Position numbers and translations under genes: made by a program | Shown here: positions 3 to 6,964 of the stretch, piece by piece | How positions within the stretch are numbered: the stretch's first letter is position 1 | How the letters are laid out: the number at the start of each line of letters is the position of its first letter | Notes under the pieces: model-generated | Seen by the model: only the letters and a program-made list of their open reading frames with translations | What the model was told of the DNA's origin: nothing | Databases searched by the model: none | Source of the DNA: Actinomycetes bacterium | GTDB lineage: Bacteria > Actinomycetota > Actinomycetes > Propionibacteriales > Propionibacteriaceae | Length of the DNA stretch: 38,749 bases | Assembly: GCA_021781735.1 (NCBI GenBank) | Contig: JAJXWF010000010.1 | Span: 1 to 38,749 of the forward strand | Direction: 5' to 3'

Positions 3-494
3 GTGGCCGGTGTCCTCATCGCCGGACGCCGCAAGCCTCACGCCGCAAGCCCCACCATCACCATGGCCCTGCACCGGTGGATCGCCCTCGGCATGGTCGT
101 GTTCCTGCTCGTGCACATCACCACGGCCATCGCCGAGACCTTCGTCAACATCAACTGGATCTCCTTCATCGTGCCGTTCACCAGCGGATACTCGCCCTTC
201 TGGGTGGGCCTCGGCACCCTGGCCTTCGACCTGCTGGCCGTGGTGGTGGCCACCTCGTACCTGCGCCACCGGATCCCGGAGCGGAACTGGAAGCTCGTGC
301 ACTGGCTGGCTTACGCGTTCTGGCCGATGGCGATCGTCCACGGCTTCGCGCTCGGCACGAGTCAGGAATGGGTGCTGCGTGTCATCACCCTGGCCTGCGG
401 CGTCGTGGGCCTGCTGGCCATCGCGTGGCGGGTCAACGCCCGCCACCACGACCGTGAGCGCCGCGACGTCATCCTCGAACAGGAGTGGTCATGA
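3..494 (+). CDS. Ferric-reductase-like transmembrane protein (5' partial)
   Basis: This is the C-terminal part of a multi-pass membrane protein; the window begins inside the gene, so the GTG at position 3 is probably not the true start. At least four hydrophobic segments can be read. Histidines lie in or next to membrane segments (HRW and LVHI in one helix pair, LVHW and IVHGF further on), the arrangement of b-type haem ligands in ferric-reductase-like or cytochrome b domains. The tail is charged and cytoplasmic-looking (ARHHDRERRD). The stop overlaps the next start as ATGA, so it is coupled to a NuoF-like flavoprotein and then a ferredoxin. The inferred role is a membrane haem subunit passing electrons between a soluble flavin/Fe-S module and an unknown acceptor. 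The domain call is fairly secure; donor and acceptor are not known. Confidence 0.7.
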   Translation: MAGVLIAGRRKPHAASPTITMALHRWIALGMVVFLLVHITTAIAETFVNINWISFIVPFTSGYSPFWVGLGTLAFDLLAVVVATSYLRHRIPERNWKLVHWLAYAFWPMAIVHGFALGTSQEWVLRVITLACGVVGLLAIAWRVNARHHDRERRDVILEQEWS

Positions 495-1606
495 CCCCCG
501 CAACGCTGAACTCGACCGGCGTCCAGTTGCTCGACTCTCTCGAGGCCGCCGGGCTCACCGGACGCGGCGGGGCGGCCTTCCCGTCCGCCGTGAAGCTCCG
601 GGCGCTGACGAGGCGCCGCACGGGGGTGATCGTCAACGCCTGCGACGGTGAGCTCGGTGCGGTCAAGGACGGCTGGGTCGTCGCCAACCACCGCGACGAC
701 CTGCTGCGCGGCGCCACCATCGTCGGACGGCTGGCGCGCGGTCAGGTGAGCTTCGCGGCCCACCGCGGCTCCGCCACCGAGGAGCGGCTGCGGCGGGCCG
801 GCGTCGACACGCTCGACGTGCCCGGCCGCTACGTGTCCTCGGAGGAGAGTTCGCTGATCAACTTCGCCGAGGGCGGTCTGGCGCGCCCGATGACCAAGCG
901 GCCGCTGTACATCCAGGGTGGCCGCGATTCGACCGGACGGCGTATCCCGCCGACGGTCGTGCTCAACGCGGAAACGGTCTGGCGGATCGCCCAGATCGCC
1001 GAGCATGGGCCGGAGTGGTTCCGCCGCTACGGCACCGCGGCCGAGCCCGGGCCGCGGCTCGCCTCGGTCGGCGGCTACGTCGGTCGCCCCGTGGTCATCG
1101 AGACCCAGGCCGGCGTCCCGATCGGCGACCTGCTCGCGGCCGCGCACACCCGCTCCGACGCCGAGTATGTGCTGATCAACGGCCTGGGCGGCGCGTTCGC
1201 GCCGATTGTCGCCATCACCTCGTCGCCCTGGTCTCGCGAGGGTCTGGCCCGCTTCGACGCCCGCCTCGGCCCCGGAATCATCGAGGTGCTCGATCCCCGG
1301 CGCTGTCCCCTCGACATCGTCGGCGACCTGCTGTCCTACGCGTCCGGGGAGTCGGCCGGCCAGTGCGGGCCGTGCATGTTCGGCGTCCCCGAACTGTCGG
1401 CGCTGTGGCAGCAGTTCGTGCGCAGCCCGTCGGCGAGGCACCGCCGGGCTCTCGAGGTCAACCTCGGGCTGCTGCCGGGACGCGGCGGCTGCAAGTTCCC
1501 TGACGGCGTCGCCGGGGTCGCCCGCAGCGCTCTCGCCGTGTTCTCCGACCACATCGCCGAGCACGCCGCCGGGCGTTGCCGCTACGCCGCGAGGAGATCG
1601 TCATGA
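491..1606 (+). CDS. NuoF-like flavoprotein with incomplete Fe-S cysteine set
   Basis: A 371-residue relative of the NADH-binding subunit of complex I (NuoF/51 kDa). The FMN-site motif GRGGAAFP is at about residues 24-31, a YVSSEES stretch at about 114-120 corresponds to the GEE nucleotide-binding loop, and an SLBB-like segment follows. NuoF normally ends with C-x2-C-x2-C plus a distant cysteine for cluster N3. Here the motif reads ESAGQCGPC at about 287-295, so the first cysteine is Ala289; Cys292, Cys295 and Cys334 (GRGGCKFP) remain. The ATG at 491 is chosen over GTG 485 because it has AGGAG five bases upstream and overlaps the previous stop. It lies between a haem membrane protein and a ferredoxin, so it probably moves electrons between a nicotinamide or ferredoxin and the membrane. 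It is not part of a complex I operon here. Confidence 0.75.
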   Translation: MTPATLNSTGVQLLDSLEAAGLTGRGGAAFPSAVKLRALTRRRTGVIVNACDGELGAVKDGWVVANHRDDLLRGATIVGRLARGQVSFAAHRGSATEERLRRAGVDTLDVPGRYVSSEESSLINFAEGGLARPMTKRPLYIQGGRDSTGRRIPPTVVLNAETVWRIAQIAEHGPEWFRRYGTAAEPGPRLASVGGYVGRPVVIETQAGVPIGDLLAAAHTRSDAEYVLINGLGGAFAPIVAITSSPWSREGLARFDARLGPGIIEVLDPRRCPLDIVGDLLSYASGESAGQCGPCMFGVPELSALWQQFVRSPSARHRRALEVNLGLLPGRGGCKFPDGVAGVARSALAVFSDHIAEHAAGRCRYAARRSS

Positions 1607-1818
1607 GTTCCGGGATGAGGGCCGAGGAGATCGTCCCCCTTCAGATCGATCGGATGGCCTGCACCGGACACGGCGTCTGCGCCCAGATCCTGCCGCGCAA
1701 CCTCACGCTCGATGCGCACGGCTACCCGATCCTGCTTGACGCCCTCGTCGACCCCGACGACGGGGACACGGCGATCCGCATGTGCCCCGCGCGTGCGCTC
1801 TACTGGAAGGGCAGCTGA
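1603..1818 (+). CDS. Small ferredoxin, three-cysteine [3Fe-4S]-type
   Basis: A 71-residue acidic protein. Cluster ligands are Cys20 and Cys26 (CTGHGVC, C-x5-C) and Cys61 followed by Pro (MCPARAL). The middle cysteine of a [4Fe-4S] motif is absent, as in [3Fe-4S] ferredoxins that often serve cytochromes P450. The start is the ATG overlapping the NuoF-like stop by four bases; an upstream in-frame ATG at 1576 lies inside the previous gene and is less likely. No P450 is in view. The natural partner from context is the NuoF-like protein just upstream, giving a flavoprotein-ferredoxin-membrane haem chain. Confidence 0.85.
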   Translation: MSSGMRAEEIVPLQIDRMACTGHGVCAQILPRNLTLDAHGYPILLDALVDPDDGDTAIRMCPARALYWKGS

Positions 1819-1969: not shown

Positions 1970-3004
1970 ATGACCCGCCTCCTCGCGCCCCTCGCCGGCG
2001 CTGTTCCCCTCACTCCGGGGGCGGCGCTCCCACCTCTGCAGACCATCGCCACCCCGGCTCTGTGGGGCTGGACCATCGGTGGGATCCTCCTGCTGTTCGC
2101 CCTCGACTTCGTCATCACCCGGCGTCCCCACGAGGTGGGCATCCGGGAGTCGGTGGGCTGGTCGGTGTTCTACGTCGCGCTGCCCCTCGGGTTCGGCGCC
2201 TGGGTGTGGATCCGCTTCGGCGGTGACGCCGGCCTGAAGTTCCTGTCGGGGTACGTCGTCGAGAAGTCGCTGAGCGTCGACAACCTGTTCGTGTTCATGC
2301 TGCTGCTCGGCGGCTTCGCGGTGCCACGGGCGTTGCAGCAGCGGGTGCTGTTGATCGGGGTGGCCGGGGCGCTCGCCCTGCGCGCGGTGTTCATCGCCGT
2401 CGGCGCGGTGATGCTGGCGCGTTTCGGGATCACGTTCCTGGTGTTCGGCCTGGTGCTGCTGGTGAGCGCGGTCAAGGTGTGGCGGGACGCCGTCCGAGGC
2501 CACGATGACGAGCCCGACGTCAACGATCTGGCCGTGGTGCGCGGGATCCGTCGGGTGGTCCCAGTCACCGACGGCTACCGGGGCTCCGCGATGGTCGTCA
2601 CCGAGGGCGGACGCCGCGTCGTGACCCCGCTGTCCGTGGCCGTGCTCGCGATCCTCGCGGTCGACGTGCTCTTCGCCGTCGACTCGGTGCCGGCGGTGTT
2701 CGGCATCACCGACGACGCGTATCTCGTGTTCGCGACCAACGCCTTCGCGCTGATGGGCCTGCGGGCGCTCTACTTCCTCATCTCCGGTGTCCTCAGCAGG
2801 CTCGTGCATCTCGGCCACGGCATGGCACTGATCCTCGCGCTCATCTCGGTCAAGCTGATCCTGCACTGGGCGCACACCGTATGGCCGCGGGTGCCCACGA
2901 TCTCGACGCTATGGTCCCTGGCGCTCATCGTGCTGATCCTCGCGGCCACCACATTCACGAGCCTCGCGGCGTCCCGGCGGGCCCGGGCGGGTGCACCTGG
3001 CTGA
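1970..3004 (+). CDS. terC: TerC/Alx family membrane protein, probable Mn2+ exporter
   Basis: A 344-residue integral membrane protein with about nine hydrophobic helices. The paired TerC signatures are present: EKSLSVDNLFVF near residue 98 and ILAVDVLFAVDSVPAVF near 228-244. Their aspartates lie inside membrane segments and are thought to bind the transported metal. Family members (Alx, MeeF/MeeY, plant PAM71 relatives) export or metallate with Mn2+; the older tellurite-resistance name is less informative. A Mn2+-type riboswitch immediately upstream supports manganese homeostasis. It appears monocistronic: upstream is a stop-to-leader gap, downstream a tandem repeat and a degraded gene. Confidence 0.88.
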   Translation: MTRLLAPLAGAVPLTPGAALPPLQTIATPALWGWTIGGILLLFALDFVITRRPHEVGIRESVGWSVFYVALPLGFGAWVWIRFGGDAGLKFLSGYVVEKSLSVDNLFVFMLLLGGFAVPRALQQRVLLIGVAGALALRAVFIAVGAVMLARFGITFLVFGLVLLVSAVKVWRDAVRGHDDEPDVNDLAVVRGIRRVVPVTDGYRGSAMVVTEGGRRVVTPLSVAVLAILAVDVLFAVDSVPAVFGITDDAYLVFATNAFALMGLRALYFLISGVLSRLVHLGHGMALILALISVKLILHWAHTVWPRVPTISTLWSLALIVLILAATTFTSLAASRRARAGAPG

Positions 3005-3010
3005 CGCCCG

Positions 3011-3050
3011 GGGTCGGGCCGAGGCGCCGGGGGTCGGGCCGAAGCCCCGG
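3011..3050 (+). repeat. 20-bp tandem repeat, two units
   Basis: Two adjacent 20-base units at 3011-3030 and 3031-3050 share GGGTCGGGCC and differ at two positions in the second half. The array starts seven bases after the terC stop codon. It is one of several short tandem repeats found in gaps of this window. Confidence 0.8.
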
Positions 3051-3142
3051 AACTCGTCCCCGGGTCCGCAGGCGGCCTGCCCACTGTCGTCGGTGCTCGC
3101 GTTCGCGGGGCCCGGTCGCCTGCCGATTCCGAGGTGTCCCGG

Positions 3143-3180
3143 TCGTCCACAGGCCGCTCCGGCGCCCCTGATCATCCACA
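3143..3180 (+). other. Two DnaA-box-like nonamers
   Basis: TCGTCCACA (3143-3151) and TCATCCACA (3172-3180) each differ by one base from the actinobacterial and general DnaA-box forms TTGTCCACA and TTATCCACA, in the same orientation. Two boxes 20 bases apart are not an origin; they might titrate DnaA or affect the downstream gene, or be chance. Confidence 0.3.
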
Positions 3181-3219
3181 GATGCCGCATCTCGGCCACT
3201 CGGCACCGGTGTCTGTGCC

Positions 3220-3225
3220 CACAAT
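3220..3225 (+). promoter_or_regulatory. -10-like CACAAT, leaderless spacing to GTG 3232
   Basis: CACAAT followed by six bases (CCGGTC) and then the GTG start. There is no Shine-Dalgarno sequence, so the transcript probably begins at the start codon. Confidence 0.4.
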
Positions 3226-3231
3226 CCGGTC

Positions 3232-4312
3232 GTGACTACCCGACGGAGCGAGCTCGATCGGCGTCTTGCCCGTGCGGGCGGCGCTCTGCGCATCCGCGAC
3301 CACCCGGACCTCGACTGGACCATCCGCGCCGGGCTGCGTGCGGGGACGCTGGCGCGCCCGCTTCCCGGCGTGGTCGTTGCGTCCGCCCTCGTCGACGACC
3401 CCGACGTCCGGATCGTGGCAGCCGTCCGGTGGCGTCCCGGCGGAGTCCTGCCGGGCCGAGCCGCCGCCAGAGTGGGCTTTCGACCCCGGCATCCGCGTCG
3501 ATGACGTGACGGTCACCGGACGCCGAACGGCTGCGCATCCGGGGTTCCGCGTGGTCGAGGACTCCCCCGATCCCCGGTACATCCGCATCCGAGGGCCGTT
3601 GAGGTTCTCGGCCCCCAGCCTCACGGTGATCGATCTGCTGCGTGACGGTGACGACGACCCGCTCTACGATGCGCTGCGCCGACGCGTCGTCGGCCTGCAC
3701 TCGGTGCGACGCGCCCTCTCCGCCCACCCCCAGCGCGCGGGCAACGCCGAGGTTCGGCGGCTGTTGTGGCGTGCGCGGGAGAATGCCTGGTCACGCGGCG
3801 AAGCGGAACTGCACGACTTCCTCCGCAGGCTCGCCATCGCGGGCTGGAACGGCAACGTGCGGCGTGAGATGCGGGGCAGCGTCCACTACATCGACGCGCT
3901 GTTCGGTCGCGAGCGCCTCGCACTTGAACTCGACGGCGTCGAACACCACAGCAGCACCATCGACCGCGAGTACGACTACCGACGGCGCGCCCTGCTCATG
4001 GCCCACGGCTACCGCGTTCTCGGCCTCACGCTGGGGATGCTCCGCACCGACCCCGAACGCGTCGCGTGGGAGATCGGCGCAGCCCGGGCGATCACCCGGC
4101 CACCGGATCCGGGGCGACCGGAGTCCCGTGGGGCAATGGCCGCTGAAAGCTCCGCGGTTACCGGCAGATTCGCAGCCCGCGTCACACCGCGGCGGACGCG
4201 GCCTCCCGCACGGCCCACGCCGGGGGCACGTAGGCGCAGGTGGGGTCCGATGCCAGGTAGTTGCCCGTCAGCGCGTAGGCGGTGGATCGCGATCCGCCGC
4301 ACAGCAAGTTGA
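3232..4312 (+). pseudogene. AbiEi-like/DUF559 endonuclease-fold protein, frameshifted
   Basis: Two reading frames together make one recognisable protein. From 3232 the first frame encodes an N-terminal helix-turn-helix-like part (SELDRRLARAGG, TIRAGLRAGTLARPLPGVVV) similar to AbiEi-type antitoxin N-termini. After about 3480 the homology continues one base later with IRVDDVTVTGRR and then a DUF559/Vsr-like PD-(D/E)XK domain: YIDALF, LALELDG, and HGYRVLGL. Removing one T from the TTT run at 3478-3480 restores a continuous frame reading VGFDPGIRVDD. In the second frame the stop is at 4310-4312, overlapping the convergent radical SAM gene by 131 bases; the recognisable domain ends near 4110. It is either a real one-base insertion or a sequencing error. 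Such proteins are common, poorly characterised accessory proteins of actinobacteria. Confidence 0.7.
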
Positions 4313-5420
4313 ACTCGCACACGCCGCACTTGCCCTCGAACTCCTGGGGACGCCGCAACGCCTGGAACACGGGGGAGTCGCGATAGATCTCGCTGAACCG
4401 CTGCTGCGTGACGTTGCCGCAGTGCACCGGCAGGAAGCCATTGGGGTAGACGTCGCCGATGTGATCAATGAACGCGAATCCCGATCCGGAGTTCACGGCC
4501 ATCGGGGGGCGGGGCGGACGCGGTCGCTCGGCGTGGGCGCCGAGCAGGCGGGTGGTCTCCTCGGTGAGGTAGTGGTAGAGCTCGCCGCGCGGCTGAAGGG
4601 GTTCGCCGGCCTCCCGGGCCCGGTCGCGCTCGATCGCGATCCGCCGGTACTGGGGCGCCTCGGTGGTCTTGATCGCGATCCGGTCGCTCACGTCGTGCAG
4701 CCAGTGCATGACGTCCTCGCGCTCGTCGGGGCTGAGGGCCTGCAGGTCGGCGCCGCGTCCGGTCGGGACGAGGAGGAATGTGTAGAACATGAACGCGCCC
4801 ATCTCGAGCACGGTCTTCAACAGGGCCGGCGCCTCGTGGATGTTGCCCTTGGTGAACGTCGAGTTCACCTGCAGCCGGAAGCCGGCGTCGGTGATCCACT
4901 TCGCGGCCCGCAGCGTGGCCTCGAACGTGCCCGCGAAACCGCGGAACGCGTCGTGGGTCTCGGCTGTCGCGCCATCGAGGCTCACCGACATGGCCCTGCC
5001 GCCGGCGTCGCGCAGTTCGGCGAGCAGCGCCGGCGTCATGAGGGGAGTCACCGACGGGGAGAGTGAGACGTTGAGTCCGAGGCCGGTGCCGTAGCGGACC
5101 AGTTCGGCGAGGTCACGACGCTCGAACGCGTCGCCGCCCGTGAACACGACGAGCGGACGCGGCGCCTCGTACGAGGCGAGTTCGTCGAGCAGCGCCTTGC
5201 CCTGGTCGGTGGTCAGCTGGCGGGGGTCCGGGGTGTGCTGCGCGTCCGCGCGGCAGTGCTTGCACACGAGCTGGCAGGCCCGGGTGACCTCCCAGATCAC
5301 GATGAACGGCTTCACGTTGATGTCGTGCTTGATGGTGCGCACGAGCGGGTGGTGCGACGGCCCCCGCGTCGCGAGAGCGTCCGCTGCTGGTTGCGTCTCC
5401 GGCTCGGTGACTGTGCTCAT
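4182..5420 (-). CDS. Radical SAM/SPASM protein, NirJ/AhbD-like (probably TIGR04053 family)
   Basis: A 412-residue enzyme. The SAM-cluster motif C-x3-C-x2-C is Cys49, Cys53 and Cys56 (RACQLVCKHC). A TGGD stretch for SAM binding is near residue 95. A SPASM-type C-terminal region has cysteines in HCGNV, GKCGVCEFNLLCGG and DPTCAY for auxiliary cluster(s). The architecture and the VWEVTRACQLVCKHC start resemble haem d1/alternative-haem enzymes NirJ and AhbD and the TIGR04053 group. The ATG at 5420 has GGAGAGG upstream. It follows a porphyrinogen oxidase gene on the same strand across a 110-base gap, so a tetrapyrrole or haem role (for example an AhbD-like coprohaem decarboxylase) is a reasonable inference. 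A peptide-modifying SPASM enzyme is the alternative, but no precursor peptide is seen. Confidence 0.75.
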   Translation of the reverse strand: MSTVTEPETQPAADALATRGPSHHPLVRTIKHDINVKPFIVIWEVTRACQLVCKHCRADAQHTPDPRQLTTDQGKALLDELASYEAPRPLVVFTGGDAFERRDLAELVRYGTGLGLNVSLSPSVTPLMTPALLAELRDAGGRAMSVSLDGATAETHDAFRGFAGTFEATLRAAKWITDAGFRLQVNSTFTKGNIHEAPALLKTVLEMGAFMFYTFLLVPTGRGADLQALSPDEREDVMHWLHDVSDRIAIKTTEAPQYRRIAIERDRAREAGEPLQPRGELYHYLTEETTRLLGAHAERPRPPRPPMAVNSGSGFAFIDHIGDVYPNGFLPVHCGNVTQQRFSEIYRDSPVFQALRRPQEFEGKCGVCEFNLLCGGSRSTAYALTGNYLASDPTCAYVPPAWAVREAASAAV

Positions 5421-5455
5421 GGCCTCTCCACCCTCGCTGATCGTTTGCCCGTCAA

Positions 5456-5468
5456 CTACTTCGTGTAG
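5456..5468. promoter_or_regulatory. Small inverted repeat upstream of the radical SAM gene
   Basis: CTAC-TTCGT-GTAG is a four-base inverted repeat centred 42 bases upstream of the radical SAM start. On the minus strand a -10-like TATGCT (5473-5478, plus-strand AGCATA) lies next to it. It could be an operator over the promoter, or chance. Confidence 0.25.
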
Positions 5469-5530
5469 GAGAGAGCATAACTCGGATGCGGGAGAGTGCG
5501 GACGGCGCCCTCCCCTCGGGCGGACGCCGC

Positions 5531-6964
5531 TCAGCCCACCAGCGTCCGCGCCACCTGAACGCCGGAGGCGATCGTCGACGTGAGGCCCAGGCCGTCGGCG
5601 GCCGAGCCGGCCAGGTGCAATCCGGGGATGCCCGCGAGCTCGGCGCGCGCGGCGGCCATCCGCCCGGGATGACCCACGGTGAGCTGGGGCATCGCGTCGG
5701 GCCAGCGCACGACCGTGGCGAACACCGGCGTCGCGTTGAGCCCGATGAGCGTGGCCAGTTCGCCCGAAGCGGCCGCGATCATCTGCGCGTCGGACAGGTC
5801 GACCGCCACCCGGGATCCCGCCCGGCCGACCGACACGCGCACGATGTGCCACGACGGATGGCCGAGGGGCCACTTGCGGGACATGTTCGTCATCGCCTTG
5901 AGCACGCCGGACTGGCTGGAGTTGAGCAGCAGCCCGTTGGCGTCGCGCAGCACCGGGTTCTGCTCGGCCGCCTCGCGTTCGTAGGCGAGCACGACGGTGG
6001 CGACCGAGGCGGTGTCGACCGCCTCCAGCGCCCGCGCAGTGGCCGGCGAGTGGGGGCCCAGCAGGACAGCCGCCGGCCGCGGTCCCACCGCGACCACGAC
6101 GGCGTCGGCTTCGACCGGCCCCTCGCCGGTGTCGACCCGCCACGTGTCTCCGGTGCGCCCGATTGCCTCGACGCGAACCGCGGTGCGCACGGTGGCATGT
6201 CCCTCGAGCGAGGAGGCCAGCGCGTCCACCAGGGCGCCGAGGCCGCCGGGCCAACTGGCGAACATCGGCAGGGGCGCCGGTTCGTCGGGGCGCCGCGGCG
6301 GTGGGGTCGGCTTCCTCAGCGCACGGAGCAACAGGGAGGTGCCCGATTCGGCGACCGGGACGAGTTGCTTGGCCGTGGCCTGCAGGCTCAGCCGGTGGAT
6401 GTCGCCCGAGTGCAGGTTGCCGAGCAGGGGGTCGACGAAGGTGTCGGTGACCTCGCGGCCGAACCGTCCCTGGACGAAGTCGCCGACCGCGACGTCGGCG
6501 GCCTGGCGGCGGCGGGTGAGCGGCTCGAGGCCCGCGCGCACGATGGCGTGCCAGGAGAGGATCCCCGAGCGCAGCACCGGGCCCACCCGGGTGGGTCCCG
6601 TGGGACCGACACCCGCCGGGAGTGGACGCAGACCCCTGCGGGTGAGCAGCACCGACTGTCCCCGGCGGGCGGCGATCACCGTCGCGTCGAGGCCGAGGGC
6701 CCGCGCGAGGTCGGCCGCCGCGGGAGCGCCCAGATGGATGGCCTCGGCCCCGACATCGACCGCGACACCGTCCACGTCGATCGCCAGCACCTGGCCACCC
6801 AGCCGTTCGGACGCCTCGAGTACGGTGACGGTGGTCTCGGGGCGGTCGCGAAGGATCTGTCGGGCCGCGACGAGGCCGGTGACCCCGCCCCCCACGATCA
6901 CGACACGGTGGGGCGCGGGCCGGGCTGCGGGTCCGGTCGGGCCGCCGGCTGTCTCAGTGGTCAT
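5531..6964 (-). CDS. hemY: Coproporphyrinogen/protoporphyrinogen oxidase, HemY/CgoX type
   Basis: A 477-residue FAD-dependent oxidase of the amine-oxidase fold. The N-terminal dinucleotide motif GGGVTGLVAAR is near residue 26, followed by TVLEASERLGGQV, the second FAD contact of this family. A C-terminal FAD-binding end is seen (IPGLHLAGSAADGLGLTSTIASGVQVA). Length is usual for HemY/CgoX. In actinobacteria this enzyme generally oxidises coproporphyrinogen III in the coproporphyrin-dependent haem pathway. No other hem genes are present except the possible radical SAM partner downstream. The start ATG lacks a Shine-Dalgarno sequence but has TAGAGT seven bases upstream, so a leaderless transcript is likely; that hexamer contains the TAG stop of the preceding response regulator gene. 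Confidence 0.88.
   Translation of the reverse strand: MTTETAGGPTGPAARPAPHRVVIVGGGVTGLVAARQILRDRPETTVTVLEASERLGGQVLAIDVDGVAVDVGAEAIHLGAPAAADLARALGLDATVIAARRGQSVLLTRRGLRPLPAGVGPTGPTRVGPVLRSGILSWHAIVRAGLEPLTRRRQAADVAVGDFVQGRFGREVTDTFVDPLLGNLHSGDIHRLSLQATAKQLVPVAESGTSLLLRALRKPTPPPRRPDEPAPLPMFASWPGGLGALVDALASSLEGHATVRTAVRVEAIGRTGDTWRVDTGEGPVEADAVVVAVGPRPAAVLLGPHSPATARALEAVDTASVATVVLAYEREAAEQNPVLRDANGLLLNSSQSGVLKAMTNMSRKWPLGHPSWHIVRVSVGRAGSRVAVDLSDAQMIAAASGELATLIGLNATPVFATVVRWPDAMPQLTVGHPGRMAAARAELAGIPGLHLAGSAADGLGLTSTIASGVQVARTLVG

Follow-up and report, generated by a model that had tools for sequence, protein, structure and literature searches.

The question raised by this locus is where electrons go that pass through a haem membrane protein, a NuoF-like flavoprotein and a small ferredoxin encoded side by side. 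The three genes lie at the beginning of a 38,749-nucleotide (nt) stretch of DNA from a member of the Propionibacteriaceae (Actinomycetota; GenBank assembly GCA_021781735.1, contig JAJXWF010000010.1), called the window below. Its first base is that of contig C36, part of a 3.19-Mb genome (98.9% complete, 285 contigs), and it opens inside an operon; the three genes occupy the bases up to 1818. We consider it likely that this operon drives NAD(P)H-dependent export of electrons to flavin mononucleotide (FMN) held by the C-terminal residue of a small membrane-tethered protein, the tail, whose gene precedes the apbE gene of the same operon. Gene order, motifs, conservation, the absence of a match to the FMN_bind family in the organism's own genome and the sorting of ApbE types are read directly in the sequences; flavinylation, topology, direction of flow and the cluster and haem content we infer from them.

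In the proposed scheme, NAD(P)H would reduce the FMN of the NuoF-like protein. Electrons would then pass through its three-cysteine cluster to the [3Fe-4S] ferredoxin, on to the haems in the MsrQ-like protein and finally, on the far side of the membrane, to the FMN carried by the tail. The tail has one predicted membrane helix, a low-complexity tether and the ending [ST]-x-[GA]-[ST]-COOH, preceded by a preference for Gln or His at position -6; this spacing is that of the ApbE target motif. The cassette's own ApbE, from a clade with Asn in place of a catalytic Asp, would attach FMN to the tail's last residue.

An operon probably cut by an assembly break

Features of the cassette are as follows (window coordinates, all on the + strand).
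3..494: MsrQ-like, putatively haem-binding membrane protein (Ferric_reduct, PF01794; 33.9 bits, cut-off 28)
3..199: overlap, 97% identical, with the terminal part of contig G000:C171 (locus L004)
491..1606: NuoF-like flavoprotein, 371 residues (PF01512, Complex1_51K, 64.6 bits; PF10589, NADH_4Fe-4S, 36.7 bits)
1355..1357: codon of Ala289; complex I has its first N3-cluster Cys here
1364..1375: codons of Cys292 (1364-1366) and Cys295 (1373-1375)
1490..1492: codon of Cys334
1603..1818: ferredoxin, 71 residues, CXXHXXC...CP (PF13459, Fer4_15, 35.2 bits), [3Fe-4S] type by motif

The Pfam matches of all three proteins lie above cut-off, and both junctions (msrQ-like/nuoF-like at 491-494, nuoF-like/ferredoxin at 1603-1606) are ATGA overlaps. 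An earlier note, made from this sequence alone, had described three coupled genes for a haem membrane protein, a NuoF-like flavoprotein and a small ferredoxin, with Ala289, Cys292, Cys295 and Cys334 in the second; genes and residues were all found where it had placed them. The 5' end of the MsrQ-like gene is cut by the contig start; the N-terminus is visible on contig C171 and in relatives.

Beyond the reach of the window, contig C171 carries an apbE gene (L004 2768-3712) preceded by genes for three small tail proteins (open reading frames, ORFs, ending at L004 1075, 1535 and 2764). We join C171 to C36 on the strength of the 97% overlap and of the unbroken order in a relative, L005, where tail, apbE, msrQ-like, nuoF-like (product 96% identical) and ferredoxin genes follow one another on a single contig. 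A strain-variant contig, C207, repeats two of the three tail proteins. Contigs C36, C171 and C207 of this genome (L004, L247) seem to be strain variants of one region, assembled separately, so that strain variation probably interrupted the assembly where the window's contig begins. An ORF that, as a guess from its sequence, is peptidyl-tRNA hydrolase-like (L004 1725-2378) separates the second tail gene from the third.

The earlier note had named an upstream gene revealing a known complex as one of two findings that would refute it, and the upstream apbE does link the cassette to a known kind. MsrQ-like flavinylation clusters with apbE have been described and are common in Actinobacteria; 31 include a NuoF-like (PF10589) protein, and their typical partners are apbE and an FMN_bind gene (PMC8238504). 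Such clusters are defined by a PF01794 protein beside flavinylation genes, and here the PF01794 match (33.9 bits) has apbE directly upstream. The MsrQ-like/ApbE system with a NuoF-like donor is therefore already known, and the new part is the C-terminal tail carrier with its ApbE clade. The haem protein and apbE are common to both, as is the NuoF-like protein for a subset. They differ in the carrier, typically FMN_bind there and here apparently a short C-terminal tail in which no flavin-binding domain is recognised, and in the ApbE, whose triad Asp is replaced by Asn in the present case. Searches of an open-access library (preprints and the supplementary gene lists of PMC8238504 aside) turned up no description of C-terminal or tail flavinylation, or of a flavin carrier of this kind. 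One related locus, L046, is without the msrQ-like gene and without a portion of nuoF.

A shared ending spaced like the ApbE target motif

In relatives, the gene directly before apbE encodes a small protein of 71-180 residues (median 100 among 45 nonredundant sequences) made of one N-terminal hydrophobic helix and a low-complexity remainder rich in Ser/Thr/Gly or Pro/Lys. In 71 of 74 loci, at most 30 nt separate its stop codon from the apbE start, and in 46 the two genes overlap. An adjacent small single-helix ORF is present in 75 of 80 loci. Its last four residues read [ST]x[GA][ST] in 69 of the 80, against 25 of 933 comparable ORFs elsewhere. Five loci gave no ORF by script; three of these (L012, L060, L062) carry the motif on a protein below the helix threshold. 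Six tails end otherwise: L041-L043 in THTS, THSS and SHSS, L117 in SGVS, and L038 and L115 in acidic or Lys-rich sequence. Exact canonical ends are found in L078 (SGAT), L072 (TGAS) and L106 (SGAS), and all three tails of the window's own genome end in T-x-T-x-G-S. None of ten tails tested matched a Pfam or NCBIfam model over cut-off.

The survey covered 80 apbE loci for which 350 nt of upstream sequence was available; three of them duplicate loci already in the set. Tail ORFs were picked by position, size and helix alone, and the C-terminus was inspected afterwards. The 45 nonredundant tails leave out L038 and L115, set aside beforehand, and three repeats.

ApbE modifies the motif D-x-x-[ST]-G-A-[ST] (PMC12052999). 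Conservation among the 45 tails peaks at positions 0, -1, -3 and -6, which is the spacing of that motif. The last residue is Ser in 44 and Thr in one, and position -3 is Ser or Thr in every tail, so that both [ST] positions are matched by 45 of 45. Gly (35) or Ala (7) occupies position -1; Gln (18), His (13), Asp (4) and Lys (3) are found at -6, and Gly at -2 in nine. The four-residue motif occurs in 42 of the 45 tails (42 of 47 if L038 and L115 are counted), compared with a mean of 1.9 and a maximum of 8 for random linker 4-mers in 2000 draws. In eight Nocardia tails the ratio of nonsynonymous to synonymous polymorphism (pN/pS) is 0.12 in the first 45 residues, a sign of strong constraint, and 0.78 in the nearly free linker, and the last seven codons are unchanged.

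A seven-residue motif is reported to be enough for ApbE and to work best at a protein terminus (PMC12052999). The tail resembles the artificial Flavin-tag described there in that a terminal seven-residue peptide suffices for the tag; the tag is engineered, whereas the tail is apparently natural, with an altered motif and an altered enzyme. With the ApbE substrates FMN_bind, NqrB/RnfD, DUF2271, DUF3570, Flavodoxin_4 and FMN_red, as these are presented in PMC8238504 and PMC11334425, it shares a Ser/Thr target in an [ST]GA[ST]-like motif, and the sites of FMN_red likewise lie on an unstructured C-terminal extension. Those substrates are folded domains, whereas the tail is a membrane helix with a low-complexity tether, and its target would be the very last residue.

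Target genes of MsrQ-like clusters carry a signal peptide or lipidation site; what the tail presents is its N-terminal hydrophobic helix, whose N-terminal flank is the more positive one in 43 of the 45 tails, and the topology predicted from charge is N-in, C-out. Twin-arginine export of pre-flavinylated tails was considered as a general route and discarded, an RR pair preceding the helix in just 23 of 45. Eight loci (L038, L139, L140, L142, L255, L261, L262, L269) encode, near the tail or apbE, a further small membrane protein whose C-terminus is acidic (..EDGGVDD, ..DDDD).

The ending accompanies ApbE proteins with an altered triad

The cassette ApbE belongs to PF02424 (166.1 bits), and its model has the ApbE fold (Z 33.7, root-mean-square deviation, rmsd, 2.5 against 1vrm over 295 residues). 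The catalytic triad of ApbE, in Vibrio cholerae numbering, is Asp285-Ser241-His257 (PMC12052999). The equivalents of His257 and Ser241 are invariant in cassette ApbEs. The Asp is replaced by Asn in 80 of 81 cassette rows and by Glu in the remaining one (L115); the residue is Asn267 in 33 of 33 rows of alignment A2.

The identity of this residue sorts with the neighbouring gene. Among 105 apbE loci, 56 have kept the Asp, 44 with an FMN_bind-like neighbour and none with a tail; of 32 Asn-type loci, 23 have tails and none an FMN_bind-like gene; and 17 Glu-type loci divide into five with terminal motifs, five with near-terminal ones (e.g. TGASGAKP), one with an FMN_bind-like gene and six with nothing. 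A regular-expression match to FMN_bind beside a Glu-type ApbE occurs in L177. In a 114-locus sample of the phylum, terminal motifs were present in 0 of 42 Asp-type, 23 of 33 Asn-type and 15 of 39 Glu-type loci, a further 12 of the 39 having one to five extra residues; the Asn-type row at offset 5 (L179) seems spurious, and chance may account for some of the Glu rows. Glu-type tails extend to other classes in this sample.

The 105 loci are a non-random set: 18 hand-picked from relatives, the best-scoring loci (three repeats dropped) and 60 taken roughly in list order. The 114 loci were ranked by similarity to the cassette ApbE, and for each apbE the nearby ORF with the best fit was used, all types being treated alike. 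In both sets "FMN_bind-like" denotes a regular expression, not a family search.

A tree computed with the triad column masked groups 116 Asn-type sequences in a single clade (support 0.81) and separates the full set of 64 Asp-type sequences, together with two Glu rows, from the rest (support 0.93). Losses within the cassette group lend the link between ApbE and tail some independence. No ApbE was found in the genomes of L067 and L069, and only an Asp-type one in that of L077, and the small protein in the tail's place there has no motif; in L071, L073 and L083 an Asn-type ApbE lies elsewhere in the genome and the motif is kept. In one genome a motif-bearing cassette copy is accompanied by a second copy, L051, that lacks the motif.

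These patterns suggest a wider possibility, which we put forward tentatively: a dedicated actinomycetotal form of flavinylation in which FMN is placed on the C-terminal residue of a disordered tethered string, the carboxylate missing from the Asn-type triad being supplied by the substrate's own C-terminal carboxylate, and which might account for many "orphan" actinobacterial apbE genes. This would account for the fact that motif-bearing tails of the Asn type stop exactly at the target Ser, where Glu-type tails may extend one to four residues beyond it.

Several observations weigh against the tail as flavin carrier of an active ApbE. The absent Asp is a catalytic-triad residue, so that the activity of Asn-type enzymes could be lost or changed. 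Of the Asn-type loci in the 105-locus set, 9 of 32 have no tail by script, although in L168 one can be made out by eye; in L014 and L040 neither the script nor further inspection revealed a tail next to apbE; and in L038 the adjacent ORF ends in ..KEDD, a motif-bearing ORF lying further upstream. Three Asn-type loci with msrQ- and nuoF-like genes have neighbours ending differently (L141 ..KTTTT, L169 ..SASTKPSGG, L184 ..NRSAG). The match to the published motif is partial, Asp at -6 (4 of 45, with Gln or His in 31), Gly at -2 (9 of 45) and Ala at -1 (7, mostly Gly) not being kept, and the motif sits in Ser/Thr-rich sequence, though linker controls score far lower. That the last seven codons are unchanged in the Nocardia tails proves little alone, since no synonymous change is found there either. 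The Asn type being a single clade, its link with the tail amounts to one evolutionary event, long kept, rather than many. Lastly, no strong N-terminal hydrophobic stretch was seen in 78 of 80 cassette ApbEs; the enzyme looks cytosolic and the tail's C-terminus is predicted to be outside, so FMN would need to be added before export. As a separate observation, the protein before the Asn-type ApbE of L141 seems to be longer and of secreted type, with the ending NSTGSSKTTTT; it may be a folded domain to which a tail is fused.

Two of these points, the near-universal Asn and the cytosolic appearance of the enzyme, favour another explanation, in which the Asn-type ApbE is an inactive flavin-binding scaffold or a flavin adenine dinucleotide (FAD) pyrophosphatase, the tail end is a docking peptide and the haem protein reduces its acceptor directly. 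Retention of the triad His and Ser and of the ApbE fold argues against it, as do the Glu-type relatives, which retain a carboxylate and several of which have a canonical TGAS or SGAS near the C-terminus; moreover, a docking peptide does not predict Ser or Thr as last residue in the ApbE register. We regard this explanation as rather unlikely.

A putative NuoF-like donor with three cluster cysteines

The remaining genes bear on the path and direction of electrons. The model of the NuoF-like protein (AlphaFold; mean predicted local distance difference test, pLDDT, 89.1) has the full NuoF fold (Z 39.5, rmsd 2.5 against 8olt_F over 353 residues). GRGG, F30, N49, E54, K59-D60, Y114, E118, N159 and E161, all invariant or nearly so, are presumably FMN and NADH contacts, as in NuoF. 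Fold, these motifs and three of the four N3 cysteines are as in NuoF of complex I; unlike there, the first N3 Cys is Ala and the own cassette contains no other complex I subunit. The NuoF-like protein scores 126.9 bits against TIGR01959 (NuoF of complex I), below the curated NCBIfam cut-off of 558.65. The earlier note was right in its picture of a compact electron-transfer chain outside complex I.

Ala289, Cys292, Cys295 and Cys334 are each present in 96 of 96 rows of the cassette alignment (93 distinct sequences) and in 35 of 35 rows of alignment A1. Ala289 is thus a mark of the family, not a chance mutation, and the four-cysteine cassette homologues that would have spoken against the earlier note were seen in none of the 96. 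In a first alignment residue 289 was Ala in 98 of 100 rows and Cys in two (L103, L104), which we take to be genuine NuoF, as they are only 26% identical and their short loci showed none of the other cassette genes. Besides Cys292, Cys295 and Cys334, no fully conserved Cys column exists in the 96-row alignment. Cys272, considered as a fourth ligand, was rejected: the position holds Cys in 76 of the 96 rows and Asp in 17, and it sits just ahead of the helix 273-288 leading to the cluster, the length of which should place it too far away.

Cassette loci came from a scan of species-representative genomes, of which the best 80 of 101 were retained, and from a search of 57 relatives that added more. 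One of six seed peptides in the scan was GQCGPCMF, which does not cover residue 289; the 57-relative search, made without such seeds, agrees. The 96-row set left out L103 and L104 as well as two repeats (L008, L087), with short loci swapped for longer ones; three repeats remain.

The ferredoxin does have three cysteines, as the earlier note had counted, and these are no peculiarity: CXXHXXC(X)nCP is the motif of crystallographically established [3Fe-4S] ferredoxins (PMC9868604), and by motif the cassette ferredoxin is of this ordinary type. CX5C..CP is kept in 94 of 95 rows, the exception being L046, whose ferredoxin lacks the N-terminal part; His stands at the second-Cys position in 82 of 95. 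Mycobacterium tuberculosis Fdx and FdxE, described in the same source, share the motif; the cassette ferredoxin, unlike them, neighbours a NuoF-like and a haem membrane protein, not a P450. Four His residues of the MsrQ-like protein (truncated-product numbering) are conserved, His24 and His38 in 88 of 89 rows each, His100 in 90 of 91 and His113 in 90 of 92, a pattern fitting two haems.

Direction of flow and candidate acceptors

Clustering of the ORFs of 95 loci, which include many spurious antisense ORFs of high-GC DNA, gave no family beyond the cassette common to most loci among the top 40 clusters; the rubber oxygenase Lcp was found in 13 and others in at most 14. The lack of a common acceptor gene could favour the same parts working in reverse, with an extracytosolic donor reducing the tail flavin and electrons moving inward to NAD+ or ferredoxin, and such redox enzymes are reversible in principle. 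Lcp itself, upstream in 13 of 95 loci, points the other way, and NAD(P)H has been inferred as donor for MsrQ-like systems (PMC8238504); we consider inward flow unlikely and keep to export.

The Lcp homologues occur in 12 Nocardia records and one metagenome-assembled Gordonia genome (L047, e.g. 2792-4105; L048, L049, L051-L057, L059, L060, L066). They have a twin-arginine motif and KTRxIHAAVRHLL (PF09995 was checked in L054 and L059), and their gene is on the cassette strand, upstream of the tail; in the 11 loci measured, 51-112 nt separate it from the start of the tail gene. Purified Lcp is reported to contain ferric haem (PMC6311187), so that a reductant would make sense. This suggests Lcp as a candidate acceptor in those 13 loci, a lead rather than a result. 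In the lineage of the window itself no Lcp was seen.

Genomes with ApbE and no FMN_bind match

The earlier note had proposed extending the sequence upstream for FMN-binding or ApbE-type genes. The second kind was found there; as for the first, the own genome has one ApbE and no match to PF04205 (FMN_bind). That this model can overlook diverged FMN_bind domains tells against our reading. In the sample of 57 genomes, ApbE is encoded in 39, FMN_bind in 25, and ApbE without an FMN_bind match in 14. Eight of these 14 (G000, the window's own, G012, G019, G029, G034, G037, G039, G054) have an Asn-type ApbE with a tail, and in G029 this pair stands without a NuoF cassette nearby. That the locus is an MsrQ-like flavinylation cluster of the ordinary sort, with the gene for its FMN_bind substrate at another site and an unrelated small membrane protein as the tail, would agree with the typical make-up of such clusters (PMC8238504) and with the 25 of 57 relatives encoding FMN_bind somewhere, but is very unlikely, since the own 98.9% complete genome gave none, FMN_bind-like genes in the loci examined adjoin a separate Asp-type ApbE or a Glu-type one outside the tail group (L135, L138), and the motif is missing where the tail-type ApbE is missing.

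Genes beyond the cassette

Directly downstream (window 1970-3004) lies a gene for a TerC/Alx family metal membrane protein (TIGR03718, 324.9 bits). On the minus strand, window 4182-6964 encodes a radical S-adenosylmethionine protein (TIGR04053) and a protoporphyrinogen oxidase (TIGR00562), that is, haem-related genes near a putative haem-dependent electron exporter.

Implications

The tail protein offers a further, testable candidate substrate of ApbE in actinobacteria, and its shared C-terminal ending makes small unannotated proteins recognisable. If the proposal is correct, covalent flavin carriers would need no flavin-binding fold, and the chemistry of ApbE would tolerate loss of the triad Asp. 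In Nocardia, the secreted oxygenase Lcp would then gain a candidate reductant.

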